DNA from: Ancylobacter tetraedralis
GTDB taxonomy: Bacteria > Pseudomonadota > Alphaproteobacteria > Rhizobiales > Xanthobacteraceae
Direction of reading: 5' to 3'
Assembly: GCF_014195655.1 (NCBI RefSeq)
Contig: NZ_JACICD010000002.1
Location: 62,001 to 126,000, forward strand
DNA: 64,000 nucleotides
Under the pieces are notes generated by a model. That model saw only the letters and a list, made by a program, of their open reading frames with translations, was not told where the DNA came from and did no database searches. This document shows, piece after piece, positions 9,554 to 27,145 of the stretch. A program made the translations under genes and the position numbers. Positions within the stretch are counted from its first letter, which is position 1. Every line of letters starts with the position of its first letter.

Positions 9554-11881
9554 ATGTCCGCCGTGAAAACCCGCTACCGTATCGCCGGGATGGATTGCGC
9601 CTCCTGCGCGACGAAGATCGACACCGCGGTGCGCCGGGTGGCGGGCGTCGCGGAGGTGTCGGTCTCGGTCACGGCCGGCACCCTGACCGTGGATCACGAG
9701 GGCGCCGACCTCGCGCTGGTGGAAAAGCGCGTCGCCGGCCTCGGCTATGGCATCGTGCCGCTTCCAGTCGCGAGCCACCCGGCCGCAGCGGCGCCGGCTG
9801 GCGATCACGGCCATGAGCACGACAGCCATGCCCATGGCGCGTGCTGCGGGCACGATCATGATCCCACCCATGATGATGGCCATGACCATGGCCATCACGA
9901 TCACGAAGCCCACGATCATCAAGGTCACGGCCATCAGGACCACCCGGGCCTGGTCGCCGCCGCGCCGGCGCCCCGCGCGGCGGCCGAGAGCCATGGGCAC
10001 GACCACACGCATATCGACGGCGACGGGCCGTGGTGGAAAAGCCGCAAGGCGCGGCTGACCCTCGTCTGCGGTGCGGCGCTGGCCGGCGCCTACGCGGTCG
10101 GCCATTTCCTGCCATGGCTCGATCCCTGGATCTTCATCGCGGCGCTGCTGATCGGCCTCGTGCCGATCGCCCGGCGCGCCGTCATGGCCGCGCTGTCGGG
10201 CACGCCCTTTTCCATCGAGATGCTGATGACCATCGCCGCCGTCGGCGCGGTGATCATCGGCGCGTCGGAGGAGGCGGCGGCCGTCGTATTCCTGTTTCTG
10301 GTCGGCGAATTGCTGGAAGGCGTCGCCGCCGGCCGGGCGCGCGACAGCATCCGCGCGCTGACCCGGCTGGTGCCCAAGACCGCGCGCCTCCTCGAGAACG
10401 GCACCACCCGCGAGGTGCCGGCCGAGAGCCTCACGGTCGGCGCCGTCATTCTGGTGCGGCCGGGCGAGCGCATCCCCGCCGATGGCGAGGTACTGGAGGG
10501 AAGCGGCGCGGTGAACGAGGCGCCGGTGACCGGCGAGAGCGTGCCGGTGGCCAAGCGGCCGGGCGATGGCGTCTATGCCGGCACGGTGAATTTCGACGCG
10601 GCACTCACCATTCGCGCCACCACCGCGCCCTCCGACAACACCATCGCCCGCGTCGTGCGGCTGGTGGAGGAGGCGCAGGAGAGCAAGGCCCCGACCGAGC
10701 GCTTCATCGACCGGTTCTCGCGCTGGTACACTCCCTTCGTCGTGGGACTGGCGGCGCTGGTCGCCGTGGTGCCGCCGCTCGTCTTTGGCGCCGCATGGGA
10801 TGCGTGGATCTACAAGGGCCTCGCCATCCTGCTCATCGGCTGCCCCTGTGCGCTGGTCATCTCGACCCCCGCGGCCATCGCGGCCGGGCTCGCCGCCGGC
10901 GCACGGCGCGGCCTGCTCATCAAGGGCGGCGCGGTGCTGGAAGTGCTGCGCAACATCGACACGGTGGCGCTCGACAAGACCGGCACGCTCACGGCAGGAA
11001 AGCCGAAAGTGACGGACGCGATCGCTTTCACCGGCGATGAGAACGCGCTGCTCGCCCGCGCCGCCGCGCTGGAGGCCGGCTCCACCCATCCGCTCGCCAG
11101 CGCCATTCTGGCGGAGGCCGCCATTCGCGACCTCGAGGTGCCCGGCGTCCAGAACGCCGGCGCGGCGAGCGGCGAGGGCGTCACCGGCACGGTGGAGGGC
11201 GTGACGCTGTTCCTCGGCTCGCCCCGGGCGGCGGGCGCGCGCGCGCCCCTCACCACTGAGCAGAGCGCGACCATCGACACGCTGAACGATGCCGGCAAGA
11301 CGGTCTCCGTGCTGCTGGCGGATGGGGCGGCCGAAGGGCTGATCGCCATGCGCGACGAACCGCGCCCCGATGCCGCCGCCGGCCTTGCCGCGCTGAAGGC
11401 GGCGGGCATCCGCACCCTCATGCTCACCGGCGACAATGAGCGCACCGCACGGGCGATCGGCGCCGATCTCGGCATCGAGGTGCGGGCCGGGCTGATGCCG
11501 GCCGACAAGCAGCGCATCATCGTCGAGTTGCAGCGCGAGGGGCGGAAGGTCGCCAAGGTCGGCGACGGCATCAACGACGCCCCCGCGCTTGCCAGCGCCA
11601 ATGTCGGCATCGCCATGGGCGGGGGTACCGATGTCGCGCTGGAGACGGCGGATGCCGCCGTGCTGCACGGGCGGGTGGGCGATGTCGCCGCCATGATCGA
11701 CCTGTCCAAGGCGACGATGGGCAATATCCACCAGAACATCACCCTCGCGCTCGGGCTCAAGGCGGTGTTCCTCGTCACCACCATTGCCGGCATTACCGGG
11801 CTGTGGCCGGCCATCCTCGCCGATACCGGGGCCACCGTGCTGGTGACGGCCAACGCGCTGCGACTGCTGCGCAGACGCTGA
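9554..11881 (+). CDS. P1B-type heavy-metal-exporting ATPase (ZntA/CadA-like)
   Basis: This 775-residue inner-membrane pump exports Zn2+, Cd2+ or Pb2+ using ATP. In order it has an HMA domain with GMDCASC (C15 and C18), a very His/Asp-rich linker at about residues 80-155, paired transmembrane helices and the actuator TGES motif. Further on are the membrane CPC metal site (C430 and C432), the phosphorylated aspartate in DKTGTLT (D474), the HP motif in STHPLASAIL and GDGINDAPAL. CPC with this regulator type points to the P1B-2 group. The His-rich linker is a likely metal-buffering or delivery region. It is divergent from its MerR gene. Confidence 0.93.
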   Translation: MSAVKTRYRIAGMDCASCATKIDTAVRRVAGVAEVSVSVTAGTLTVDHEGADLALVEKRVAGLGYGIVPLPVASHPAAAAPAGDHGHEHDSHAHGACCGHDHDPTHDDGHDHGHHDHEAHDHQGHGHQDHPGLVAAAPAPRAAAESHGHDHTHIDGDGPWWKSRKARLTLVCGAALAGAYAVGHFLPWLDPWIFIAALLIGLVPIARRAVMAALSGTPFSIEMLMTIAAVGAVIIGASEEAAAVVFLFLVGELLEGVAAGRARDSIRALTRLVPKTARLLENGTTREVPAESLTVGAVILVRPGERIPADGEVLEGSGAVNEAPVTGESVPVAKRPGDGVYAGTVNFDAALTIRATTAPSDNTIARVVRLVEEAQESKAPTERFIDRFSRWYTPFVVGLAALVAVVPPLVFGAAWDAWIYKGLAILLIGCPCALVISTPAAIAAGLAAGARRGLLIKGGAVLEVLRNIDTVALDKTGTLTAGKPKVTDAIAFTGDENALLARAAALEAGSTHPLASAILAEAAIRDLEVPGVQNAGAASGEGVTGTVEGVTLFLGSPRAAGARAPLTTEQSATIDTLNDAGKTVSVLLADGAAEGLIAMRDEPRPDAAAGLAALKAAGIRTLMLTGDNERTARAIGADLGIEVRAGLMPADKQRIIVELQREGRKVAKVGDGINDAPALASANVGIAMGGGTDVALETADAAVLHGRVGDVAAMIDLSKATMGNIHQNITLALGLKAVFLVTTIAGITGLWPAILADTGATVLVTANALRLLRRR

Positions 11882-14712: not shown

Positions 14713-16098
14713 TCACATCACCGAGGACACGGCCTCGGGCGACTGTTCCAGCGCATGGGCGATGTAGTCGAGCGCGGAGCGGATCTGCGCCCGGCTCGCC
14801 GGCCCGCCGAGGCACACGCGCACCGCCTCGCGCGCCGGCCCGCCGGCGGTGAAGGCATCGCTCGCCACCACGCCGATGCCGGTGCTGCGCATGTGGCCGA
14901 CAAAGGCCGAGCGGGTCCACGCCGCCGGCAACTCGATCCAGAGATTGAAGGCCAGCGGGTCGGCGCGGAACGAGCCCGCCGGCAGGATCTCGGCGGCCAG
15001 CGCCTGCCGCGCCTGCGTCTCCGCGCGGATGAAACGCAGCAGAGTGTCGGCCGTGCCGTCCTCGATCCAGCGCGTGGCCAGCGCGGCGGTGAGCGGGGAG
15101 GCCATCACGCTCGCCGTGCGCAGCGCCGCCGCGAAGGGATAGCCGGCGCGCGTATCGGGCACCACGACATAGGCCGTGCGCAGCCCCGCGCCGATGCATT
15201 TGGCCAGCCCCGCCACATGCCAGGTGAGATCGGGCGCGATGGCGGCGAGCGGCGGCGGCCCATGCGGCGGGATGAAGCCATAGGCGTCATCCTCGACGAT
15301 CGGCACGCCGAAGCGCCGCGCCACCTGGGCGATGGCCGCGCGCCGCGCCTCCGGAATGGTCAGCGTGGTCGGGTTCTGCAGCGTCGGGTTGAGATAGAGC
15401 GCCTTGGGCGCCAGCGTGCGACAGGCCTGCGCAAAGGCATCGGGGTCGATACCCTCAAGGTCCATCGGCAATCCGTGCAGCTTGAGCCCCAGTTGCGCGG
15501 CGATGGCGCGCGCGCCGGGATAGGTGATCGCCTCGCACAGCACACATTCGCCCGGCCGGGCGAGATGTCCGAGAATGCCGAGCAGGGCGGGATGCGCGCC
15601 CGGCGTGACGAAGATGCGCTCCTGCGAGGGCACCATGGCGCGCCGCCCCAGCCAGGCGGAAGCTGCGTCCTTGTCCGCCCGCGTGCCGCCGAAGCCCTGA
15701 TAGCGCAGCAGCGCCACCAGATCGCGCGCGACCTCGGCGAGCCCCTCCTGCATGCGCGCGATGAGGGCCGGATCGTCCGGCTCGGGCGGCAGGTTCATCG
15801 AGAGGTCGACGGCGGTGGACCGCGCGGGGGTGGCGGCGCGCGTCTTTGGGCGCGGCGCACCCACCACGAACGTGCCCTGACCCACCCGCGATTCGACGAG
15901 GCCTCGCTTCTGCGCCTCGACATAGCCGCGCGCCACGGTGGTGAAATCGATATCCAGCCGGCTCGCCAGCTTGCGCTGCGGCGGCAGCCGGTCGCCGATG
16001 GCGAGGCGGCCGCTGCGGATATCCTCGCCGATCAGGTCGGCGATGGCGAGATAGCGCGGCTTGTCGGAACGGGAGAGGTCGGGTGTCCAGTCGGCCAT
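14713..16098 (-). CDS. MocR-family GntR/aminotransferase-fusion regulator
   Basis: This 461-residue regulator joins an N-terminal GntR winged HTH (residues 10-75: YLAIADLIGEDIRSGRLAIG, ending RVGQGTFVVG) to a fold-type-I aminotransferase-like domain. The PLP lysine lies in VAGLAKCIGAGLRTAYVV. MocR proteins sense PLP or an amino compound and typically bind direct repeats. It starts at MADWTPDLSR, as upstream in-frame sequence has no family similarity. It is divergent from the nine-gene Nit1C operon across a 394-bp region with four copies of a TTGAxTGTA motif, one next to its own start. It is therefore the best local candidate for a regulator of that operon. Confidence 0.88.
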   Translation of the reverse strand: MADWTPDLSRSDKPRYLAIADLIGEDIRSGRLAIGDRLPPQRKLASRLDIDFTTVARGYVEAQKRGLVESRVGQGTFVVGAPRPKTRAATPARSTAVDLSMNLPPEPDDPALIARMQEGLAEVARDLVALLRYQGFGGTRADKDAASAWLGRRAMVPSQERIFVTPGAHPALLGILGHLARPGECVLCEAITYPGARAIAAQLGLKLHGLPMDLEGIDPDAFAQACRTLAPKALYLNPTLQNPTTLTIPEARRAAIAQVARRFGVPIVEDDAYGFIPPHGPPPLAAIAPDLTWHVAGLAKCIGAGLRTAYVVVPDTRAGYPFAAALRTASVMASPLTAALATRWIEDGTADTLLRFIRAETQARQALAAEILPAGSFRADPLAFNLWIELPAAWTRSAFVGHMRSTGIGVVASDAFTAGGPAREAVRVCLGGPASRAQIRSALDYIAHALEQSPEAVSSVM

Positions 16099-16185: not shown

Positions 16186-16199
16186 ATTGACTGTATAAT
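16186..16199. promoter_or_regulatory. mocR-proximal copy of the TTGAxTGTA repeat
   Basis: ATTGACTGTATAAT lies 87 bp upstream of the mocR start. It differs by one base from ATTGAATGTATAAT at 16358-16371 and sits 172 bp away in the same orientation. It probably binds the same regulator, perhaps for MocR autoregulation. Confidence 0.5.
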
Positions 16200-16357
16200 G
16201 TTGCAGAGGTGGCCTGTCACCCCTGGTCCAACAATTGCTGCGTCCGGAAGAGTACGAAGCTATTCCTGACAGCTGCCCGCAAACCAAGCAAAACCCTGCC
16301 TGTTCGCTGCGCGCACGCCCAGAGTTTCAACAGCCCGGAATCGGCGGCCGAGCCCAG

Positions 16358-16393
16358 ATTGAATGTATAATTGAATGTAATTTGACTGTTTTG
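16358..16393. promoter_or_regulatory. Three tandem 12-bp repeats upstream of the Nit1C promoter
   Basis: ATTGAATGTATA (16358-16369), ATTGAATGTAAT (16370-16381) and TTGACTGTTTTG (16382-16393, more diverged) lie head to tail. They end 25 bp upstream of the -24 element. Same-strand repeats spaced about one helical turn apart suit MocR-type regulators, which often bind direct repeats. They could instead bind an unlinked sigma-54 activator. Confidence 0.55.
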
Positions 16394-16418
16394 CTGATTC
16401 TTTTTGCATTCCATCAAT

Positions 16419-16434
16419 TGGCACATTGATTGCA
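16419..16434 (+). promoter_or_regulatory. Sigma-54 (RpoN) promoter of the Nit1C operon
   Basis: TGGCAC-N5-TTGCA matches the -24/-12 consensus, with GG at 16420-16421 and GC at 16432-16433 separated by exactly 10 bp. Transcription should begin near 16445, about 48 bp before the first gene. Sigma-54 control is usual for nitrogen-starvation genes, and these gene families are named for a nitrogen-starvation response. Confidence 0.82.
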
Positions 16435-16492
16435 ATTCCAGATGGCGTGGCCCGGCAGCGCTGCCGGCCCCGTTTCACTTGAGGAGAGCGAC

Positions 16493-16975
16493 ATGGCCAC
16501 CATCACCGTCCCCGCCCATCAGAAGGGCGACGTTCTGGTCGATTTCGAGGACAAGAAGTTCGAGGACGTCAAAGCCGCCCCCGGCGAGAAGGCGCTCATC
16601 ACCTTTCACACCGTCGCCTTCGAGGGCTCGATCGGCCTCGTCAACCTGCTGCAGGCCTCGCGCCTGATCCAGAAGGGGTTCGAGACCTCGGTTCTGCTCT
16701 ATGGCCCCGGTGTCACGCTCGGCGTGCAGCGCGGCTTCCCCAAGCTCGGCGACGAGGCCTTTCCCGGCCACCTGAACTTCAACAACCGCATCGAGAAGAT
16801 CCTCAATGACGGCGGCAAGGTCTATGCCTGCCGCTTCGCCCTGCAGGCGCTGTACGGGCATGGCGAGGGCGCGCTGATCCCCGGCATCATCCCGGTCAGC
16901 CCGCTCGACGTGCTCGACATCATCCTCCTGCACCGCCGCGACAACGCCTTCATCCTCGATACCTGGACGCTCTGA
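16493..16975 (+). CDS. MSMEG_0572/sll0783-family nitrogen-starvation protein
   Basis: This is a 160-residue soluble protein with no signal peptide or membrane segment. The sequence ([20 protein letters not shown], then [20 protein letters not shown]) resembles a DsrE-like fold. I recognise it as the small protein that opens Nit1C nitrilase clusters, called nitB in cyanide-assimilating Pseudomonas. Its biochemical role is unknown. The start is the ATG at 16493 behind GAGGAGAG. It is the first gene after the sigma-54 promoter and 35 bp ahead of the nitrilase gene. Confidence 0.85.
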
Positions 16976-17010
16976 GCGTCCGGGTCCCCACCGCATCCGA
17001 GGAGACTGCA

Positions 17011-18081
17011 ATGGCCGGAAAGAGAATCGCGGAAAAACGGGTCGTGCGCGTCGGCGCGGTGCAGATCGCGCCCGACCTCGATAGCCTGGAGGGCACGCTC
17101 ACCCGCGTGCTCGCCGCGCTGGACGAGGCGGCGGGCAAGGGCGCGGAGCTCGTGGTGTTTCCCGAGACCTTCGTGCCCTGGTACCCCTATTTCTCCTTTG
17201 TCCTGCCCCCGGTTCTCACCGGCGCGGAACATCTTCGGCTCTATGAGAATGCGGTGGTCGTGCCCGGCCCGGTGACCGAGGCGGTGGCGGCCAGCGCCCG
17301 CCGCCTCGGCGTCGTGGTGGTGCTGGGGGTGAACGAGCGCGACCATGGCTCGCTCTACAACACCCAGCTGGTGTTCGACGCCGACGGCACGCTGGCCCTC
17401 AAGCGCCGCAAGCTCACCCCGACCTTCCATGAGCGGATGATCTGGGGCCAGGGCGACGGCGCGGGGCTGAAGGTGGTCGACACCGCGGTCGGCCGGGTCG
17501 GCGCGCTGGCCTGCTGGGAGCACTACAATCCCCTCGCCCGCTACGCCCTGATGGCGCAGCACGAGGAAATCCACGTCGCGCAGTTTCCCGGCTCGCTGGT
17601 CGGGCCGATCTTCGCCGAGCAGATCGAGGTGACGATCCGCCACCACGCGCTGGAATCGGGCTGCTTCGTGGTGAATTCCACCGGCTGGCTCACCGACGAG
17701 CAGATCGCCCGCATCTCCCCCGACGAAAAGCTGCGCCGCGCCCTGACCGGCGGCTGCATGAGCGCGATCATCTCGCCCGAGGGCAGCCATGTGGTGCCCC
17801 CGCTGACCTCCGGCGAGGGCATCCTCCTCGCCGATCTCGACATGGCGCTGATCACCAAGCGCAAGCGGATGATGGATTCGGTCGGCCATTACGCCCGGCC
17901 GGAACTGCTCAGCCTCAATCTCGACAACCGGCCGGCTGTGCCCATGCAGCAGGCCGCTCCCTCCTTCACCAGCTACGGGAGTGCGACCGATGAAACCGAT
18001 GGATCCGGCGACCGATCTTCAGCCGATGCCGACCGAGCATCTGATCAACGAGTTGCAGTCCTACGGGGTGCGGCTCGTTGA
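17011..18081 (+). CDS. Nit1-type nitrilase
   Basis: This 356-residue enzyme of the carbon-nitrogen hydrolase superfamily hydrolyses nitriles to carboxylate and ammonia. The catalytic triad is visible: E52 in [14 protein letters not shown]134 in [15 protein letters not shown] and C168 in [15 protein letters not shown]. It belongs to the Nit1C group, whose Pseudomonas member (NitC) is required for growth on cyanide, probably acting on a cyanide-derived nitrile. The C-terminus runs about 30 residues past the expected family end. That tail is low-complexity ([20 protein letters not shown]), and its coding sequence overlaps the radical SAM gene by 92 bp. A lost stop codon or frameshift is possible. 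Confidence 0.9.
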
Positions 18082-19141
18082 TCCGGCGGCCGGCGCGCCC
18101 TCGCGACGCGGCGGTGCCGGCCCGTCGGACCACAAGGCGATCACCCTCGACGGCATGACCGTCATGGTGCCGGTGCACACCGCGCCGGCCTTCGAGAGCC
18201 CGTATCTGGTGGAAAAGCCGGATGCCTTCGGCCGCAGCCGCATCAGCCGCGACGGACTGGTGCTGGGCGAGGTATCGTTTCCGCTGCAGCCGAAATTCTA
18301 CGGGCTGAGCACCGCCGAGGGCATCCCCTATTCCAGGATCGCCGTGCTGCATGGCCGCGATGTGCTGGCGACCACGGTGCTGCAGACCTGCATCCGCTAC
18401 CAGAGCCGCACCAAGACCTGCCAGTTCTGCGCCATCGGCCAGTCGCTGGCGGCGGGCCGCACCATCGAACGCAAGACCCCGGCCCAGCTGGCGGAAGTGG
18501 CGAAAGCCGCCGTGGAGCTGGACGGCGTCAAGCACATGGTGATGACCACCGGCACGCCGCCGGGCAAGGACCGCGGCGCAGCCCTCCTCACCGAGAGCGC
18601 GGCGGCGGTGAAGGCGGCGGTGAACCTGCCCATCCAGGTGCAGTGCGAGCCCCCGGACGACGATGCGTGGTTCGCCCGCATGTTCGACGCCGGCGCCGAC
18701 GCGCTCGGCATGCATCTGGAAGCCTGCACCGAGGAGGTGCGCCATGCCATCATGCCAGGCAAGGCGCAGGTCTCGGTGGAGCGCTATTTCGAGGCTTTCG
18801 CGGCGGCCGTGCCGGTGTTCGGGCGGGGCCAGGTCTCCACCTACATCCTCGCCGGCCTCGGCGACACGCGCGAGGATATTCTCGGCGTGTGCGACCGGCT
18901 GACGCGGATGGGCGTCTACCCCTTCGTGGTGCCCTTCGTGCCGATCTCCGGCACGCCGCTGGAGAGCCACCCGACGCCCTCCCCCGCCTTCATGAATTCC
19001 ATCCTCGGTCCGCTCGCCGGCATGCTGCTGGCCACCGGGCTCAAATCCATCGATGCCAAGGCGGGCTGCGCCAAATGCGGCGCCTGCTCGGCACTCGCGA
19101 CCTATGAGCGGCGGGGAGTCGCGCCAGGGGCCTGTTCATGA
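17990..19141 (+). CDS. MSMEG_0568-family radical SAM protein
   Basis: This 383-residue protein of the Nit1C cluster (NitD-type) has an N-terminal domain of about 125 residues, then a radical SAM barrel. The putative cluster cysteines are C134, C144 and C147, a CX9CX2C pattern rather than the usual CX3CX2C. The C-terminus has C360, C363 and C366 (CAKCGAC), which may hold a second cluster. The reaction is unknown. I prefer the ATG at 17990, which has GGGAG at 17977-17981. A GTG at 17981 and an ATG at 17999 are alternatives. It overlaps the nitrilase 3' end by 92 bp and the acetyltransferase start by ATGA. Confidence 0.87.
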
Positions 19142-19713
19142 TGTTCGAACCCGTCCGTCCCTTCATCGCCGCCGACTTCCAGGTGAAATTCGCCACCGCG
19201 ACCTGGGAGCGGCGCTGCGCCGCGCAACTGCGCCGACAGGTGTTCTGCGCCGAGCAGGGCCTGTTCGGCGGCCGGGACGACCGCGACAGCCTCGATGACG
19301 TCGCCATCCCCATCGTCGCGCTGTCCATGCTCGGGGTGATGGCGGACGATGTGGTCGGCACGGTGCGCATCCATGAAGCCGAACCCGGCACCTGGTGGGG
19401 CTCGCGCCTCGCGGTGGCCGAGGACTATCGCAAGGTCGGAGCGTTGGGGGCGGCGCTCATCCGCCTCGCCGTCTCCTCCGCCCATGCGCGCGGCTGCACC
19501 CGCTTCCTCGCCCATGTGCAGAGCCAGAACAGCCTGCTGTTCCGACGGCTGCACTGGAACATCCTCGAGGAGACGGAGCTGCACGGCCGCGCGCATGTCC
19601 TCATGCAGGCGGACCTTGCCTTCTATCCCCCGATCGCCGACGCGGAGACCGGCTTCCACGCGCAGGCCCGCTCGGCGCTGGCCGGTTCGGCTTCGATGCG
19701 GAGGGCGGCCTGA
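19138..19713 (+). CDS. MSMEG_0567/sll0786-family GNAT N-acetyltransferase
   Basis: This 191-residue GNAT-fold acyltransferase is the NitE-type member of the cluster. The acetyl-CoA-binding region is near residues 90-115 (SRLAVAEDYRKVGALGAALI), and QNSLLFRRLHW fits the GNAT C-terminal motif. The amine substrate is unknown, and the cluster context suggests an intermediate of the operon's product. It starts at the ATG at 19138, overlapping the radical SAM stop as ATGA, which implies translational coupling. A second ATG follows at 19141. Confidence 0.86.
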   Translation: MMFEPVRPFIAADFQVKFATATWERRCAAQLRRQVFCAEQGLFGGRDDRDSLDDVAIPIVALSMLGVMADDVVGTVRIHEAEPGTWWGSRLAVAEDYRKVGALGAALIRLAVSSAHARGCTRFLAHVQSQNSLLFRRLHWNILEETELHGRAHVLMQADLAFYPPIADAETGFHAQARSALAGSASMRRAA

Positions 19714-19714
19714 C

Positions 19715-20719
19715 ATGAGCGGCTCGCCCTTTTCTGCCACCGCCTTCGAGGCCCTCGCCGCCGCGCTGCGCGGCTCGGCCGGCCTGATGGCCAAGGCCGA
19801 TATCGGCCTTGCCGCTGCCCGGCTTGGCCTTGGCGAGGGGTCCGCGATCCGGGTCGGCGACGATTGTGCGGCGATCCCCGACGGCGACGGCTTCCTGCTC
19901 CTCGCGATCGAGGGCTTCATGAACCGTTTCGTCGCCGGCGACCCGTGGTTTGCCGGCTGGTGCGGGATGATGGTCAACATTTCCGACATCGCCGCCATGG
20001 GCGGACGCCCGCTCGCCGTGGTCGACGCGGTGTGGGCGGATGGCGAGGAGGGGGCCGCACCGGTGCTGGACGGGCTGCGCGCCGCCTCCCAGCGCTTCGG
20101 CGTGCCGATTGTCGGCGGCCATACCAATCTCTCCACCGATCGCGGCCAGCTCTCGGTGGCCATTCTCGGCCGCGCGAAAAAGCTGCTCACCTCCTTCGAC
20201 GCCCGCCCGGGCGAGACGCTGATCGCCGCCATCGACCTGCGCGGGCGCTACCGCGAACCCTTCTCCAACTGGGAAGCCGCCACCGAGGCCCCCGCCGAGC
20301 GGCTGCGCGGCGATCTGGAACTGCTGCCCTTCATCGCGGAAAGCGGGCTCTCCCGCGCCGCCAAGGATATCAGCCAGGGCGGCGTGGTCGGCACGAGCGC
20401 CATGCTGGCGGAAGCCTCCGGCGTCGGCGTCGAGATCGAGCTTTCCCGCGTGCCCGCGCCGGAGGGGGTGGACCCGGCCCGCTGGCTGATGAGCTTCCCC
20501 AGCTACGGCTACCTCATCTGCGCCCAGCCGGCCCATGTGCCGGCCATCCTCGCCGCCTTCGAGGCGCGCGGTATCGCCAGCGCCGCCATCGGCACCCTCA
20601 CCGCCGATCGCCGCGTCACCGTGGTGAATGGCGGGGCGCGCGAGACCATCTGGGATTTCGCCACCCGCCCGCTCATCGGCTGCGGGCCGACCACCGCGCC
20701 GCGGGAGGATGCGGCATGA
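19715..20719 (+). CDS. sll0787-family AIR synthase-like protein
   Basis: This 334-residue PurM/SelD-like protein begins one base after the acetyltransferase stop. Landmarks of the ATP-binding PurM fold are VGDDCAAIPDGDGF, MVNISDIAAMGGRPLAVVDA and IVGGHTNLSTDRGQLSVA. KDISQGGVVGTSAMLAE is also present. Relatives (PurM, SelD, ThiL, HypE) use ATP to phosphorylate or activate a carbonyl, amide or carboxyl oxygen. The substrate in Nit1C clusters (NitF) is not known. It overlaps the glycosyltransferase start by ATGA. Confidence 0.87.
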   Translation: MSGSPFSATAFEALAAALRGSAGLMAKADIGLAAARLGLGEGSAIRVGDDCAAIPDGDGFLLLAIEGFMNRFVAGDPWFAGWCGMMVNISDIAAMGGRPLAVVDAVWADGEEGAAPVLDGLRAASQRFGVPIVGGHTNLSTDRGQLSVAILGRAKKLLTSFDARPGETLIAAIDLRGRYREPFSNWEAATEAPAERLRGDLELLPFIAESGLSRAAKDISQGGVVGTSAMLAEASGVGVEIELSRVPAPEGVDPARWLMSFPSYGYLICAQPAHVPAILAAFEARGIASAAIGTLTADRRVTVVNGGARETIWDFATRPLIGCGPTTAPREDAA

Positions 20720-21885
20720 GACGCGATCCCAGCCCGAATCTGCGCATCGCCATCCTCGCCCATTCCACCAATCCGCGCGGCGGCGTGGTGCACGCGCTGG
20801 AACTCGCCGACGCGCTGACCCGCCTCGGCCATGAAGCGGTTGTGCATGCACCGGACGCCAAGGGCGCCGGCTTCTTCCGCCCCACCCGGTGCGGCACGGT
20901 GAGCGTGCCGGCTTCGCCCGTCGGGACGGATATCGCCGAGATGGTGAGCATTCGAATAGCCGACTATGTAAATTACTTCGAAACTCCGGCCCACCGCCGC
21001 TTCGACGTGTTTCACGCGCAGGACGGCATTTCCGGCAACGCGCTGGCTGTACTGAAGGCGCGCGGGCGGATCTCCGGCTTCGCGCGCACCGTGCACCATG
21101 TCGATACCTTCGCCGATCCCGCTTTGATGGCCCTGCAGCGGCAGGCGATCATCGCCGCCGACCGGCACTTCGTGGTCAGCCGGCTCTGGCAGGATCTGCT
21201 GTTCGAGACGTTCGAGGCGCGCCCGACGCTGGTCGGCAATGGCGTGGACCGGCAGCGTTTCTCCCCCCTGCCGGATGGAAGGGAAACCGCGCTCGCCGCC
21301 GGGCTCGGCGTCGGGACCGGGCCGATCGTGCTCAGCGTCGGCGGTGTGGAGGCGCGCAAGAACACGCTGCGTATCCTTGAGGCCTTCGTCGCGCTGCGGG
21401 CGCTGCACCCGAGCGCGCAGCTGGTCATCGCCGGCGGCGCCTCGGTGCTCGACCACCAATCCTATCAGCAGCTTTTCGCCGCCGCACTGCAGACGAGCGG
21501 GCTGCCCGACGGGGCGGTGGTCATCACCGGGCCGCTGCCGCAGGCCGACATGCCCGCGCTGTATCGGCTCGCCCATGCGCTCGCCTTCCCCTCGGTGACG
21601 GAAGGCTTCGGCCTCGTCGCGCTGGAGGCGATGGCCTGCGGGGTGCCGGTGGTGGTCTCGCACATCCTGCCCTTCACCGAGCATATCGGCGCGGACGAGG
21701 CGGTGTGGTGTGATCCGACGAATTCCGGCTCGATCGCCAACGCGCTTGCCGCCGCGCTCGATCCCTCCCTCGCGGCGCGCCTTGCCGCGCAGGGCCCGGT
21801 GGTCGCCGCCCGTCATGACTGGACGGCCACCGCCCGCGCCCATCTCGCCGTCTATGAAAGCCTCGCGGAGCCCCTCCATGCCTGA
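20716..21885 (+). CDS. MSMEG_0565-family GT4 glycosyltransferase
   Basis: This 389-residue GT-B-fold glycosyltransferase has an acceptor-side N-terminal domain starting LRIAILAHSTNPRGGVVHAL. The donor-side C-terminal domain carries VLSVGGVEARKNTLRILEAF and the family EX7E motif in TEGFGLVALEAMACGVPVVV. It has no signal or membrane helix. A glycosyltransferase in a nitrilase operon is hard to explain by nitrile hydrolysis alone and points to synthesis or modification of a small molecule. It overlaps the next gene by 8 bp. Confidence 0.87.
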   Translation: MRRDPSPNLRIAILAHSTNPRGGVVHALELADALTRLGHEAVVHAPDAKGAGFFRPTRCGTVSVPASPVGTDIAEMVSIRIADYVNYFETPAHRRFDVFHAQDGISGNALAVLKARGRISGFARTVHHVDTFADPALMALQRQAIIAADRHFVVSRLWQDLLFETFEARPTLVGNGVDRQRFSPLPDGRETALAAGLGVGTGPIVLSVGGVEARKNTLRILEAFVALRALHPSAQLVIAGGASVLDHQSYQQLFAAALQTSGLPDGAVVITGPLPQADMPALYRLAHALAFPSVTEGFGLVALEAMACGVPVVVSHILPFTEHIGADEAVWCDPTNSGSIANALAAALDPSLAARLAAQGPVVAARHDWTATARAHLAVYESLAEPLHA

Positions 21886-22165
21886 AATGACCTTCACCAT
21901 TCGCTGGCCGGACGGAACGCGGGAGCACTGCTATTCGCCCTCGCTGGTCATCAAGGACTATCTCTCCCCCGGCGCCAGCTACTCCTTAGCCGACTTCCTT
22001 GGTCGCAGCCGCGAAGCCTTGACCATCGCCAGTGATCGGGTCGCGGCGCGCTATGGCTTTGCCTGCTCGCGCGCGCTCGGCCAGCTCGCCCGGCTGGAAG
22101 CGGCCGGCGGCACCTTTTCCACCCATCCCGATGCGCGCGTCGTCGTCGAATCCTTCGACGCGTGA
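21878..22165 (+). CDS. MSMEG_0570-family nitrogen-starvation protein
   Basis: This 95-residue soluble protein begins MPEMTFTIRWPDG. It has no cofactor motif; the segment SPSLVIKDYLSPGASYSLAD and two nearby cysteines near the middle are the main visible features. It matches the small conserved protein found between the glycosyltransferase and oxidoreductase of Nit1C clusters (NitG-type). Its function is unknown. It overlaps the upstream glycosyltransferase by 8 bp and precedes the oxidoreductase by 30 bp. Confidence 0.82.
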   Translation: MPEMTFTIRWPDGTREHCYSPSLVIKDYLSPGASYSLADFLGRSREALTIASDRVAARYGFACSRALGQLARLEAAGGTFSTHPDARVVVESFDA

Positions 22166-22195
22166 TCGCGCGCGCCCGACACCGGAGCGCAAGTC

Positions 22196-23461
22196 ATGAA
22201 CGAGAACCAGATCCAGCATTACCCGGTCGTGATCGTCGGCGGCGGTCAGGCCGGCCTGTCGACCAGCCATTTCCTGCAGCAGCAGGGCATCGATCACCTC
22301 GTCTTCGAGAAGCACACGGCCATGCATGCCTGGAGCACGCAGCGCTGGGACAATTTCTGCCTGGTCACGCCGAACTGGCAATGCGCCCTGCCCGGCCATT
22401 CCTATGCCGGCAACGATCCGCACGGCTTCATGAAGAAGGACGAGATCCTCGACTACCTCAAAGGCTTCCGCGCCAAGGTCGAGCCACCCATCCGCGAGGG
22501 CGTCGCGGTGCGCCGCGTCAGCCCACGCGCCGCGGGCGGCTTCCTCGTCTCCACCACGGCGGGCGAGGTGAGCGCCGATAATGTGGTGGTCGCCTCGGGC
22601 GGCTATCACGAACCGATCGTGCCGCGCATGGCCGAGCGGCTGCCGGCCTCGATCACGCAGATCCATTCCGCGCAGTACCGCCATGCCGGCCAGCTGCCCG
22701 AGGGCGCGGTGCTGGTGGTGGGGTCCGGCCAGTCTGGCGCGCAGATCGCCGAGGACCTGCATCTGGAAGGGCGCAAGGTGTTCCTCGCGGTGGGCAACGC
22801 GCCGCGCTGCGCCCGCTTCTATCGCGGCCGCGACGTCGTCACCTGGCTGGCCGACATGGGCTATTACGACATGGCGGTCGAACAGCACCCGCTGCGCGAG
22901 GGCGTTCGCGACAACACCAACCACTACGTCACCGGCCGCGACGGCGGGCGCGACATCGACCTGCGCAAATTCGCCCGCGAGGGCATGGAACTGTTCGGCG
23001 TGCTGCGCGACTATGACGGCGCCGGGCTGATCTTCGACACCAACCTCGCCCAGACGCTCGACGACGCCGACCGGACCTATAACGGCATCAACGCGGCGAT
23101 CGACAAATACATTGCCGAGAACGCCATCGACGCGCCGCCACCCTCGGTCTACGAGCCCGTCTGGCAGCCGGCCGGCGAGCGCGGCACGCTCGATCTTGCT
23201 GCCTCCGGCATTACCTCCATCGTCTGGTGCATCGGCTTCAAGCCGGATTTCCGCTGGCTCGACGCGCCGGTGTTCAACGGCGCCGGCCATCCCCAGCACC
23301 GGCGCGGCATCACCCAGCGCGAGGGCGTCTATTTCATTGGGCTGCCCTGGCTGCACACCTGGGGCTCCGGCCGCTTCGGCAGCGTCGGGCGCGACGCGGA
23401 ATTCATCGTCGACCACATCGCCACGCGGGCGGCGCGCGGGCGCGAGGACAGCGCGGCATGA
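22196..23461 (+). CDS. MSMEG_0569-family flavin-dependent oxidoreductase
   Basis: This 421-residue flavoprotein of the Nit1C cluster (NitH-type) is related to class B flavin monooxygenases. It has the FAD-binding [17 protein letters not shown] (residues 11-27) and the NAD(P)H-binding [16 protein letters not shown] near residue 178. A C-terminal [20 protein letters not shown] block follows. It may hydroxylate or oxidise an N- or C-centre of the operon's product, which is inference. Its stop overlaps the next ATG (ATGA). Confidence 0.88.
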
Positions 23462-24381
23462 ACGCGATTATCCCCCCGCCCCTCACCATGCCGTTCCCCC
23501 TTCCGCACACACGCGGCGTGCCTCACGGCGAGCCGCGTCTGCTGGAGGAGACCGTGCGGCTCGGCATGCCGCAGCTGGCACTCGGCGGCCTGTCGGAGGG
23601 CTGGCTGCTGAAGGATCTCGGGCACCGCCACTGGATGATGCTGGCGGCGATGGCCGGGCGGACGGTTCCCGATTTTCGCGACATCGACGGCGCGCCGGTC
23701 TATGCCGCCTTCTCGGCGCTGGCGATCCGCGATGCGCGCTTCGCGGAGCTTGGCGAGAATGACGTGCTCGCCATCCGCTCGTCCATCGCCCGGATCTCGC
23801 GGACGCAATGCGCCAGCCGCCATGTCCTGAGCCGCGCCGGCGAGGCGATGGGCACGGTGGAGCTGGTCTCCGCCTTCGTGCGGCGCGGCGCGGGCGGGGG
23901 CAACCACCAGGTGGCTCGGGTGGCGCTGGAGGGCTTCCCGCCCCCCGCCGCCGCATCCTCCGCCCCATCCACCGCGACGCCCGCCAACAGCCTCGCGGAT
24001 CGGGCGGCCGCCCTGCGCGCGCGTCGGCTCGAGCACTATTTCGGCTTCGACCTCGCGGCCGCGGCGGGTGAGGCCGACCCGTTCATCGAGATAGACCCCT
24101 GCCCGGCGCAGGATTTCAACGGCGCCGGCTTTCTTTACTTTGCCAGCTTCGTTTCCTTCATCGATCGCGCCGAATGGCACTTTGACGGAAGGCAGGCACC
24201 GCGCGCGGCAACACTGCGGCGGGACGTGTTCTTTCATGCCAATGCCGATCCGGGCGAGCGGGTGCGGGTGCGCTGGCTCGGACAGCGGCGCGGCGACGGG
24301 CGGCTCGCCCATCATTGCCGGCTGGAGCGGATGAGCGACGGCACCCGCCTCGCCGAGGCCTTCACCCTGCGCGCGGTGTAA
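23458..24381 (+). CDS. Pnap_2097/LnmK-like double-hotdog biosynthetic protein
   Basis: This 307-residue protein consists of two hotdog-like halves joined by an Ala/Pro-rich linker (about residues 160-178). Recognisable segments are LGMPQLALGGLSEGWLLKDL in the first half and FIEIDPCPAQDFNGAGFLYF in the second. The second half resembles the LnmK family of acyltransferase/decarboxylases, which act on acyl-CoA and carrier-protein-bound acyl groups. In this setting it may release or transfer an acyl group on a cluster intermediate. Its ATGA overlap with the oxidoreductase ties it to the operon as the ninth gene. Confidence 0.75.
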   Translation: MNAIIPPPLTMPFPLPHTRGVPHGEPRLLEETVRLGMPQLALGGLSEGWLLKDLGHRHWMMLAAMAGRTVPDFRDIDGAPVYAAFSALAIRDARFAELGENDVLAIRSSIARISRTQCASRHVLSRAGEAMGTVELVSAFVRRGAGGGNHQVARVALEGFPPPAAASSAPSTATPANSLADRAAALRARRLEHYFGFDLAAAAGEADPFIEIDPCPAQDFNGAGFLYFASFVSFIDRAEWHFDGRQAPRAATLRRDVFFHANADPGERVRVRWLGQRRGDGRLAHHCRLERMSDGTRLAEAFTLRAV

Positions 24382-24387
24382 GCCACC

Positions 24388-25959
24388 TCACGCCAGCCGG
24401 CGGGTGAAGGCGACCGCCACCACGGCGAGCAGCAGCAGCGCGCCGAGCACGGCGAACGTGTCGGAAAAGCCCATGATCCGCGATTGCTGCGCCACCATCT
24501 GGCCCAGCAGGATCTCAGCCTGGTGATAGGCCCGCGTGGCATCGGAGCCATGCTGCATGAAGTAGTGCTGCATGCGGTCGAGGAATTCGCGCACGTTCTC
24601 GCCATAGGGCGTGACCGACTGCCCGATGATGTTGGAATGGAACTGCTCGCGCTTGGTGATCAGCGTCGCCAGCGCCGCCGTGCCGATGGCGCCGCCAAGG
24701 CTGCGCATCATGTTGAACAGGCCCGACGCCTGGCCCGACAGCACCGGCGGCATGCCGATCATGGTGATGCTGGCCAGTGGGGAGAGCACGATCGCCTGCC
24801 CGAGCGCCCGCACGATATTGGTCAGCATCAGCTGGTCGCCGCCGACATGATAGCTCAGATGCGTGTTCATGAAGCAGCTCGCCGCGAAGATGGCGAGGCC
24901 GATGCCCACCAGCACGCGCGGGTCGATCCGCTTCATCAGCATCGGCACGAACGGGATGACGATGAGCTGCGGCAGCCCGACCCAGGCCAGCACCATGCCG
25001 ATCTGCTGCGCGTCATAGCCCTGCACCTCGTCGAGATAGGTCGGCAGCACATAGACCGAGCCGAACAGCGCGAAGCCGACAATGACGTTGGCGAGGGTGC
25101 CGAGCGCGAAATTGCGCCGCGTGAACAGCCGCAGGTTCACCGCCGGCTTCTCGACCTTCAGCTCGATGGCGACGAAGATGGCAAGGCAGATCGCCGCGAG
25201 GATGGACAGCCGCACGATGAACGGCGAGCCGAACCAGTCATCCTTGTTGCCCTCGTCGAGCACCGTCTGCAGGCAGGCGAGGCCAATCGCTATGAAGCCG
25301 ATGCCCCACCAGTCGCCCTCCCTCAACAGGCGAAGGTTCAGCGGGCTCTTTTCCAGCGTCGGAACCAGCATGCCCAGCATGACGGCGCCGGGAATGAGAT
25401 TGATGAAGAAAATATAGGGCCAGCCGAACTGATCGGTGAGCCAGCCGCCAATGGTCGGGCCGATCGCCGGGCCGAAGGTCGCGGTCATGGCGAAGATGGC
25501 GATGCCGATCGGCTGCTGGCGGCGCGGCAGCTTGGTCAGCACCACGGTGAAAGCGAGCGGGATCAGGCAGCCGCCGAAGAAGCCCTGCAGCCCGCGCATC
25601 GCGATCATCTGCGAAAGATTGGTGGCGAAGGCGCAGCCCATCGAGAAAACGAGGAACAGCACCAGCGCCGAGAGGAGGAAGCGCCGGAAGCCGAATACCC
25701 GGCTCAGGTAATCGGTCAGCGGGATCATGATGATCTCGCCGATCAGGTAGGAAGTGGAAATCCACGTCCCGTTATCCGAGCCGGTGCCGATGCCGCCCTC
25801 GATATAGGGCAGCGAGGCATTGGTGATCTGGATGTCGAGCACGGCGATCAGCGCGCCGAGCATGCAGCCGATCACGGCGATCCAGGTGACGAGGCTGGCG
25901 CCGGGCTCCACCGCCGGCATCCCGGCCGGCGGCGCGAAGGTAGACGTGGCGGCGGCCAT
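24388..25959 (-). CDS. EmrB/QacA-type MFS efflux transporter (DHA2)
   Basis: This 523-residue inner-membrane protein has about 14 hydrophobic helices. It shows LGALIAVLDIQITNASLPYI in helix 1, the MFS motif A region DYLSRVFGFRRFL and the antiporter segment GPAIGPTIGGWLTDQFGW. EmrB-type pumps export drugs or toxic organics by proton antiport together with a periplasmic adaptor. The adaptor gene lies 7 bp upstream, so the two form an operon. The substrate is unknown. It is convergent with the Nit1C operon and separated from it by only 6 bp. Confidence 0.9.
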   Translation of the reverse strand: MAAATSTFAPPAGMPAVEPGASLVTWIAVIGCMLGALIAVLDIQITNASLPYIEGGIGTGSDNGTWISTSYLIGEIIMIPLTDYLSRVFGFRRFLLSALVLFLVFSMGCAFATNLSQMIAMRGLQGFFGGCLIPLAFTVVLTKLPRRQQPIGIAIFAMTATFGPAIGPTIGGWLTDQFGWPYIFFINLIPGAVMLGMLVPTLEKSPLNLRLLREGDWWGIGFIAIGLACLQTVLDEGNKDDWFGSPFIVRLSILAAICLAIFVAIELKVEKPAVNLRLFTRRNFALGTLANVIVGFALFGSVYVLPTYLDEVQGYDAQQIGMVLAWVGLPQLIVIPFVPMLMKRIDPRVLVGIGLAIFAASCFMNTHLSYHVGGDQLMLTNIVRALGQAIVLSPLASITMIGMPPVLSGQASGLFNMMRSLGGAIGTAALATLITKREQFHSNIIGQSVTPYGENVREFLDRMQHYFMQHGSDATRAYHQAEILLGQMVAQQSRIMGFSDTFAVLGALLLLAVVAVAFTRRLA

Positions 25960-25966
25960 GACACCC

Positions 25967-27145
25967 TCACTCGCTGGGCGGGATATAGGCGTTGCGCCTC
26001 ACGTCGGCCGGGATCGTCGCATCGGTTCGGATGGTCGTTTCCACCGACATGCCGGGCCGCAGCTGCCGGGCCAGCGGATCGGTGCGGTCGATGTCGATGC
26101 GCACGGGAATGCGCTGGACGATCTTGGTGAAGTTGCCGGTGGCGTTGTCGGGCGGCAGCAGGGCGAATTCCTGCCCGCTGGCCGGGGCGAGGCTGGAGAC
26201 GAAGCCCCGCACATGAAGATCGGGATAGGTATCGACCGAGATCGTCACCTTCTGGTCGGGCTTCACGTCGGTGAGCTGGGTTTCCTTGTAGTTGGCGACC
26301 ACATAGGTCGCCTGCAGCGGCACCACCGCCAGCAGCGCGGTGCCGGGCTCGACATACTGGCCGACGCGCAAGGTTCGCGCGCCCACGACGCCGTCCACCG
26401 GCGCGACCAGCCTCGTATAGCCGAGATTCAGCGTCGCCGTGTCGAGCGCCGCCTGGTTGTGGGCAAGGTTCGCCCGCGCCTCGGCAAGCTGGGCGGTCAG
26501 GGTGGCGACCTGCTTCTGCGCCGCGTCGAGCGCCGCCCGGTCGCGGGTCACCTGCGCCTGCGTCTGGCCGATCTGCGAGGTGGTCTGCTCGGCAGTCTCG
26601 ACCGGGCCGAAACCGTCCTGGGCGAGCTTGGTGAAGCGCCGGTTGTTCTGCTCGGCGAAGGTCTCGGCGGCCGCATCCGCGGCGATCTGCGCCTTGGCCT
26701 CCTCGATCAGCGCCTGCTGCTCGTTGAGCTGCGCCGCGTGATCGTCGATCGATGCCCGTGCCGCGTCGACATCGGCCACGGCCTGATCGACCGCCGCCTG
26801 ATACGGGCGCGGGTCGATGATGGCGAGCACCTCGCCCTGCTTCACCGGCTGGTTGTCGGTCACGTTGACCGTCACGAGATAGCCGGCGACCTGCGGGGCG
26901 ATGGTGACGATGTCGGCCTGCACATAGGCATCGTCCGTGCTGGTCTCGAAGCGCCACTGCGTCCAGTATTCGGTGCCCGCATAGGCAAGGGCGCCGACCA
27001 GAAGCAATACCCCCGCCACTCCCAGCCCACGCTTCAGGCCGCCATGGGAGGACGGCGCGTCCGGGAGAACGGACGGCGTCGGGGCGACAGACGCATCGAC
27101 GATCGGCGTGGCCTTCAGCGAGGCCGGATTGGTGGCCATGTTCAT
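25967..27145 (-). CDS. HlyD/EmrA-type membrane-fusion adaptor
   Basis: This 392-residue periplasmic adaptor has a cytoplasmic N-terminus and one transmembrane helix at about residues 40-58 (VAGVLLLVGALAYAG). The biotinyl-lipoyl-like VNVTDNQPVKQGEVLAIIDP, a long coiled-coil hairpin (about residues 105-215) and a beta-barrel domain follow. It would link the EmrB-type pump to an outer-membrane channel, which is not encoded here. The start is the ATG at 27145 or the in-frame ATG at 27139. No dedicated regulator adjoins the pair. Confidence 0.9.
   Translation of the reverse strand: MNMATNPASLKATPIVDASVAPTPSVLPDAPSSHGGLKRGLGVAGVLLLVGALAYAGTEYWTQWRFETSTDDAYVQADIVTIAPQVAGYLVTVNVTDNQPVKQGEVLAIIDPRPYQAAVDQAVADVDAARASIDDHAAQLNEQQALIEEAKAQIAADAAAETFAEQNNRRFTKLAQDGFGPVETAEQTTSQIGQTQAQVTRDRAALDAAQKQVATLTAQLAEARANLAHNQAALDTATLNLGYTRLVAPVDGVVGARTLRVGQYVEPGTALLAVVPLQATYVVANYKETQLTDVKPDQKVTISVDTYPDLHVRGFVSSLAPASGQEFALLPPDNATGNFTKIVQRIPVRIDIDRTDPLARQLRPGMSVETTIRTDATIPADVRRNAYIPPSE

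Follow-up and report, generated by a model that had tools for sequence, protein, structure and literature searches.

The locus analyzed in the present study is an ordinary, intact member of the known Nit1C gene cluster. Its nine genes lie on one strand (16493-24381) of the window, the whole 64-kb stretch of DNA that was analyzed, and we count the divergent gene for a MocR-type regulator at 14713-16098 on the minus strand as the tenth member of the unit (MocR + B-C-D-E-F-T-G-H-K). We consider the chances about even that this unit serves the use of nitrile or cyanide nitrogen under nitrogen shortage, with control by sigma-54 and MocR and with partner enzymes that make or modify the substrate of the nitrilase. 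The features of the locus are as follows.

14713-16098, minus strand: MocR-type regulator, a GntR DNA-binding domain and an aminotransferase-like (PLP) domain (Pfam GntR, Aminotran_1_2)
16187-16204, unstranded: MocR-proximal operator-like site TTGACTGTATAATGTTGC, with variants upstream of MocR orthologues away from Nit1C
16359-16389, unstranded: three direct repeats TTGA(A/C)TG (starts 16359, 16371, and 16382; 12 and 11 bases apart)
16418-16434, plus strand: sigma-54 type -24/-12 promoter motif TTGGCACATTGATTGCA (sequence motif)
16493-16975, plus strand: gene B, MSMEG_0572/Sll0783 family, DsrE-like fold, one invariant Cys
17011-18081, plus strand: gene C, Nit6803-type nitrilase
18026-19141, plus strand: gene D, MSMEG_0568 radical SAM protein (start 18026 or 17999)
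19138-19713, plus strand: gene E, MSMEG_0567/Sll0786 GNAT acetyltransferase
19715-20719, plus strand: gene F, sll0787 AIR-synthase-like protein
20716-21885, plus strand: gene T, MSMEG_0565 GT4 glycosyltransferase
21878-22165, plus strand: gene G, MSMEG_0570 small protein, two near-invariant Cys
22196-23461, plus strand: gene H, MSMEG_0569 flavin-dependent oxidoreductase
23458-24381, plus strand: gene K, Pnap_2097 family, LnmK-like

A profile search of each protein against the MSMEG_0565-0572 and Pnap_2097 family models placed all nine above the curated NCBIfam cut-offs. The scores in bits (cut-off in brackets) were 270 for B (MSMEG_0572, 110), 567.4 for C (nitrilase, 502.6), 595 for D (radical SAM, 304), 233 for E (GNAT, 68), 454 for F (AIR-synthase-like, 321), 493 for T (GT4, 260), 129 for G (MSMEG_0570, 80), 685 for H (flavin oxidoreductase, 498), and 328 for K (Pnap_2097, 125). 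Gene K also belongs to the LnmK family by the domain model TIGR04098 (287.4 bits; cut-off 100), and the six partner families stand in the published Nit1C order on one strand. The claim in the earlier note of a nine-gene Nit1C cluster with GT4 and LnmK-like additions was thus supported. The span it gave, 16186-24381, included the right nine genes, but omitted the divergent regulator. The "several" ATGA overlaps it mentioned are exactly three (D/E at 19138-19141, F/T at 20716-20719, and H/K at 23458-23461), and translational coupling is plausible given these overlaps. T and G overlap by 8 bases, C and D by 56 or 83 bases depending on which start of D is used, and neither E/F nor G/H overlaps. 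The surrounding genome comprises 5.03 Mb in 29 contigs (completeness 99.88%). In a scan of named genomes, the closest relatives at the locus among the matches listed were Xanthobacteraceae, including Ancylobacter.

The predicted model of B is structurally similar to the DsrE/DsrF fold, to which we assign it on this basis. The nearest sequence to C with a solved structure is 3wuy, and the nitrilase residues E52, K134, and C168 do not vary among the 12 sequences aligned (the window and 11 others). D carries CX9CX2C in 90/90 sequences and a C-terminal CX2CX2C in 88/88, while H has Cys55 in 81/82 and Cys63 in 82/82. The predicted model of G was confident, yet had no clear match among solved structures. 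Tyr84 of K aligns with a Tyr of LnmK and is present in 44 of 45 relatives; we take it to be the counterpart of the catalytic Tyr of LnmK. No acyl carrier protein was evident among the 13 neighbor families found in at least six loci, among which short and diverse proteins can escape detection. An LnmK-like relative outside Nit1C (L054) adjoins an open reading frame that resembles a carrier protein. The conserved cysteines and the DsrE-like fold hint at sulfur chemistry in the pathway.

Conservation was assessed in 90 related loci, namely, the best 80 of at least 555 confirmed in named genomes, mostly Alphaproteobacteria, and 12 from a genome sample, after the removal of two presumed duplicates (L091 and L121, of L044 and L043). 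Three loci picked up via the LnmK-like gene (L054-L056), in which the Nit1C nitrilase was not found, were also left out before counting. With K counted at 80 bits or more, the nine-gene order of the window was present in 39/90 loci, the eight genes without K in 27, and seven genes with neither T nor K in 10. The order B-C-D-E-F-G-H-K was found in three loci, and H had moved in one. The nine-gene arrangement is not rare, and gene order is conserved well beyond chance. The seven core genes were present in 80 of the 90 loci; among the ten others, eight end at a contig end, one (L071) is split in two places, and one (L135) lacks G.

The cluster had previously been described as having a "full biosynthetic complement", which is an overstatement: of the 80 loci with the seven core genes, 13 have no glycosyltransferase and 35 no LnmK-like gene (37 when K is counted only at 80 bits or more), and three have K but not T. 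Because they are missing from so many loci with the core, both genes are accessories. If T and K contribute a sugar and a further acyl step, these steps would be decorations of the pathway or diversions from it and not what defines it. In Hansschlegelia (L071), B-C-D-H-K are grouped and E-F-T-G are grouped elsewhere in the genome, with all genes kept, which suggests two working halves of the cluster. B-C-D-H-K as a minimal functional subset was ruled out because E-F-T-G were found elsewhere in that genome.

Among 299 sampled genomes of the phylum, 13 had a Nit1C nitrilase above the cut-off, and a member of the Nit1C radical SAM family above its own cut-off was found in these same 13 and no others. 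The two enzymes are retained together, as members of a single pathway would be, and the proposal that the enzyme set forms a single small-molecule pathway was supported in kind by this co-occurrence. The Pnap_2097 family exceeded its cut-off in six of the 299 genomes; four matches were inside a Nit1C locus, and two (131.9 and 130.7 bits, barely above 125) were in genomes without the Nit1C nitrilase.

The upstream region of the operon is also conserved. The consensus of sigma-54 promoters is TGGCAC-N5-TTGCW, and the window matches it exactly. We scanned the 450 bases upstream of B in 90 loci, the window included, and obtained expected numbers by first-order resampling (20 rounds for the sigma-54 motif and the repeats, 10 for NtrC-like sites). 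The motif occurred with at most one mismatch in 79/90 loci against 1.5 expected, although these counts are not independent because they come from related loci (the best 80 of at least 555, and 12 sampled). Zero, one, two, three, and four mismatches were found in 42, 37, 9, 1, and 1 loci, respectively, versus 0.1, 1.4, 11.8, 48.7, and 27.9 after resampling. In 75 of the 79 loci with at most one mismatch, the motif lies 50-115 bases before B. At least two copies of TTGA(C/A)TG were present in 51/90 loci, the window included, against 0.95 expected, and the longer box TTGA(C/A)TGTA in 43/90 against 0.35. The commonest spacings, for which a slightly looser motif was used, were 12, 44, 21, 23, and 11 bases. 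The repeats are independent of a local MocR; at least one was present in six of the nine loci without a local MocR.

The MocR-proximal site TTGACTGTATATTGTTGC and its variants precede MocR orthologues also where Nit1C is not adjacent, and we therefore consider it likely, from this distribution, to be a MocR site. For seven orthologues away from Nit1C, it was present with at most two mismatches in 18 positions in six and with four in the seventh; an exact-pattern test found it before two of the seven. In two less related MocRs, there were six and nine mismatches of 18. The site was present with at most two mismatches of 18 in four of five Rhizobium genomes in which MocR is encoded elsewhere.

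The regulator itself joins a GntR domain to an aminotransferase domain with K300 present and belongs to the MocR family. It did not reach the NCBIfam cut-off of the EhuR (ectoine) subfamily (455.3 vs 480 bits). In 78/78 relatives linked to B, N242, D271, Y273, K300, R307, and R427 are identical; we presume that these are the PLP-holding residues of the fold, with K300 as the PLP lysine. Neighbor clustering placed a MocR-type family in 81/91 loci, the window included, and MocR was within 1 kb of B in 78/90 relatives. In the remainder, it lies at the opposite end of the cluster (L111) or 4 kb away (L101), the upstream DNA is too short to show it (L098, L123, and L124), or it is not within 1 kb of B with no such cause seen (L108). 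Five Rhizobium loci (L080, L088, L099, L107, and L128) have no local MocR, and an orthologue (67-70% identity) is encoded elsewhere in all five genomes. In a locus from another class of the same phylum (L053), a protein with PAS and sigma-54-activator domains occupies the divergent place of MocR. Two further families of open reading frames (83 and 37 loci) were taken for shadows of MocR; their representatives overlap it on the opposite strand. One genome (G304) carried a second MocR copy (66%).

Two of the seven MocR orthologues away from Nit1C are from sampled genomes without a Nit1C nitrilase over the cut-off (G253 and G043), so that MocR has or had another role and can outlast or predate the operon. 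A MocR tree was built from the window, 44 random members of the 78 linked relatives, and 18 others. On this tree, the label "linked" must change four times rather than once, and three of these changes are due to orthologues labeled "other", namely, L111 and L101, which are Nit1C loci with MocR farther from B, and L153 and L154, where Nit1C is absent. One fork, with weak support (87/75), unites all 45 linked rows with these four; the tree has some long outgroup branches.

Sigma-54 promoters need an AAA+ activator. No sigma-54 activator domain was found within the 64-kb window; the genome has nine matches, six of them strong, and the nearest lies on the contig of the operon, approximately 52 kb upstream of its start. 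NtrC was weakly supported as the activator since NtrC-like sites were weakly enriched (at most one mismatch in 14/90 loci vs 3.2 expected; two other patterns in 3/90 vs 0.5 with two mismatches and in 4/90 vs 1.9 with one). The combination of a sigma-54 motif with a PLP-type regulator suggests two putative inputs, with an activator in trans conveying the nitrogen state of the cell and MocR responding to a ligand. In the literature searched, which was mainly open access, we found no description of the regulatory layout of this Nit1C, nor, Pseudomonas aside, any report that Nit1C is controlled by MocR or sigma-54. The available portion of one paper on sigma-54 (PMC3169532) does not treat Nit1C. 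In that of PMC13021748, MocR appears as a cited title.

The reading that we favor comprises four steps. The operon would be read from the observed sigma-54 motif and would, as such, need an activator encoded at another site in the genome, possibly one responding to nitrogen status. MocR, with its PLP fold, may bind the phased TTGA(A/C)TG repeats beside this promoter and the conserved site beside its own, acting as a ligand-responsive repressor or modulator. Cyanide can add to PLP and would itself be a candidate ligand, alongside a nitrile or an amino-nitrile. This chemistry, together with NitA and the cio-nit4 MocR of Pseudomonas described below, makes nitriles and cyanide the first candidates. 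B, D, E, F, G, and H, assisted by the accessories T and K, would then build or modify the nitrile-carrying acceptor, a small organic molecule; their families are those listed above, and the formation of the acceptor probably involves sulfur chemistry. The nitrilase, which retains its catalytic residues, would finally hydrolyze the nitrile of a putative substrate to an acid and ammonia. The link of Nit1C to cyanide, which the earlier note had also drawn, is experimental in Pseudomonas (PMC11049912, PMC8567248).

What cyanide use mainly leaves unexplained is the redox phenotypes reported for Mycobacterium and Synechocystis (PMC6039565, PMC3901256), and any model of the product also has to account for these. 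From them comes a rival explanation, which we consider possible, if on the unlikely side: the unit makes a redox-active small metabolite by which cells starved of nitrogen are protected, such as a sulfur compound bearing sugar and acyl groups; the nitrilase would catalyze a single step of its biosynthesis or salvage, and the use of cyanide would be a by-product. Deletion of gpr (MSMEG_0565-0572) made M. smegmatis sensitive to peroxide, and gpr expression raised NADPH/NADP (PMC6039565); NADPH and PHB were disturbed in the Synechocystis sll0783 mutant (PMC3901256). The DsrE-like fold and invariant Cys of B, the two three-Cys motifs of D, and the two conserved Cys of both G and H are consistent with such a product. 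The weaker family matches of D include lipoyl synthases and those of T mycothiol and bacillithiol glycosyltransferases, although weak cross-family matches are common in these superfamilies. However, there was no obvious thiol-building gene among the 13 neighbor families in at least six loci, as judged from their letters, and Pseudomonas requires nit1C for growth on cyanide (PMC11049912).

It is doubtful that the nitrilase alone performs the nitrogen work, on chemically formed cyanohydrins, with the partner genes as a helper module of secondary importance. In the Pseudomonas model, a 2-hydroxynitrile arises without an enzyme and is then hydrolyzed by NitC; the available text assigns no role to the partner genes (PMC11049912). 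However, the sharing of the radical SAM enzyme and the nitrilase by the same 13/299 genomes and the retention of seven genes in 80/90 loci are not expected of dispensable helpers.

A bolder proposal, which we regard as improbable, makes MocR a direct sensor of cyanide or amino-nitrile: cyanide would add to the PLP imine and free the sigma-54 operon, and the operon would build a sulfur-containing carrier, the nitrile adduct of which is hydrolyzed by the nitrilase. The carrier may be assembled by a DsrE-type sulfur donor, a radical SAM enzyme with a second iron-sulfur cluster, and AIR-synthase-like activation, with optional sugar and acyl groups. If true, this would be a PLP-based cyanide sensor with a dedicated cyanide-carrying cofactor. 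The earlier note's full reading, a glycosylated, acylated cyanide scavenger with an adduct opened by the nitrilase, is very unlikely. GT4, GNAT, and an LnmK-like enzyme that retains the conserved Tyr are indeed present; however, loci with the core but without T or K show that neither group is essential to the shared function. Viridisamide was considered as the Nit1C compound and found no support; the literature on it, as far as available, concerns cyanobacteria and cyanobactins.

It has been recognized since 2005 that Nit1C is unusually conserved. Its function can be approached through the PLP-type regulator, the repeats defined upstream, and the conserved sigma-54 motif, which together make an old question testable. 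The inducer should resemble the substrate or product of the pathway, and a reporter could find it. The split in Hansschlegelia and the accessory status of the glycosyltransferase and the LnmK-like gene may guide which enzymes to delete first.

Among known systems, LnmK of leinamycin biosynthesis (PDB 4hzo and relatives) resembles K in that K passes the family model and keeps the aligned Tyr; however, pairwise similarity is low (31 bits). The gpr operon MSMEG_0565-0572 is the namesake of these families and is induced by nitrogen starvation; unlike the present cluster, it is controlled by GlnR, and its reported phenotype is peroxide resistance (PMC6039565). Podar et al. described Nit1C and its glycosyltransferase variant in 2005 (PMC1199592). 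The present locus shares with their Nit1C the seven families in the published order, with the flavoprotein last and on the same strand as in proteobacteria, and, as in Burkholderia and Rubrivivax, the glycosyltransferase lies between the AIR-synthase-like gene and the small gene. In contrast to the clusters described in the available text of that paper, its ninth gene is LnmK-like, and a sigma-54 motif and a divergent MocR are present; Podar et al. stated that conserved upstream binding sites could not be identified (PMC1199592).

In Pseudomonas pseudoalcaligenes CECT5344, another MocR represses the cyanide-responsive cio-nit4 cluster, according to unpublished proteomics cited in PMC8567248. 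Likened by description, it is similarly divergent from a cyanide-linked nitrilase cluster, but the cluster and the nitrilase are different (PMC8567248). The nit1C cluster of CECT5344 has the NitB-NitH families and a divergent gene, nitA, for a putative regulator, as does our locus (PMC11049912). However, NitA belongs to the sigma-54-dependent Fis family, and no glycosyltransferase is listed in the available text, whereas the regulator here is a PLP-type MocR (PMC11049912). Since NitA is sigma-54-dependent, the promoter type may be shared by the two clusters, with the local regulator differing.

Nit1C loci varied between genes T (GT4 glycosyltransferase), G (MSMEG_0570 small protein), H (flavin-dependent oxidoreductase), and K (LnmK-like). 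In the relative L135, T and H were separated by only approximately 70 bases, and gene G was not detected in this gap (L135:11240-11312). Another relative carried an additional ORF:

L122:16630-17706, additional ORF in the H-K interval

The product of this ORF is perhaps secreted, and the clustering of neighbours placed a similar family in 8 loci.

An LnmK-like gene was also found outside Nit1C:

L054:4024-5127, LnmK-like gene adjoining an 87-aa ORF

The 87-aa ORF appears to encode a putative acyl carrier protein. The operator-like site (the MocR-proximal 18-base site) was present with MocR orthologues in L178 (G253) and L179 (G043), with no Nit1C adjoining. These two loci are possibly sites of Nit1C loss.

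Upstream in the window, the segment 4668-8948 resembles a gene cluster for hydroxyproline degradation, as judged from its ORFs, which we take to encode a GntR regulator, a DHDPS-family enzyme, an FAD-dependent oxidase, and a proline racemase-like protein. The ORF listing also contained a presumed heavy-metal P-type ATPase-like protein:

9554-11881 (+), ORF whose N-terminal region is extremely rich in His

On the other side, gene K faces two convergent genes:

24388-27145 (-), MFS transporter and HlyD-type gene

This pair was absent from the families present in at least 6 loci in the clustering of Nit1C-locus neighbours; it is an EmrAB-like export pair.
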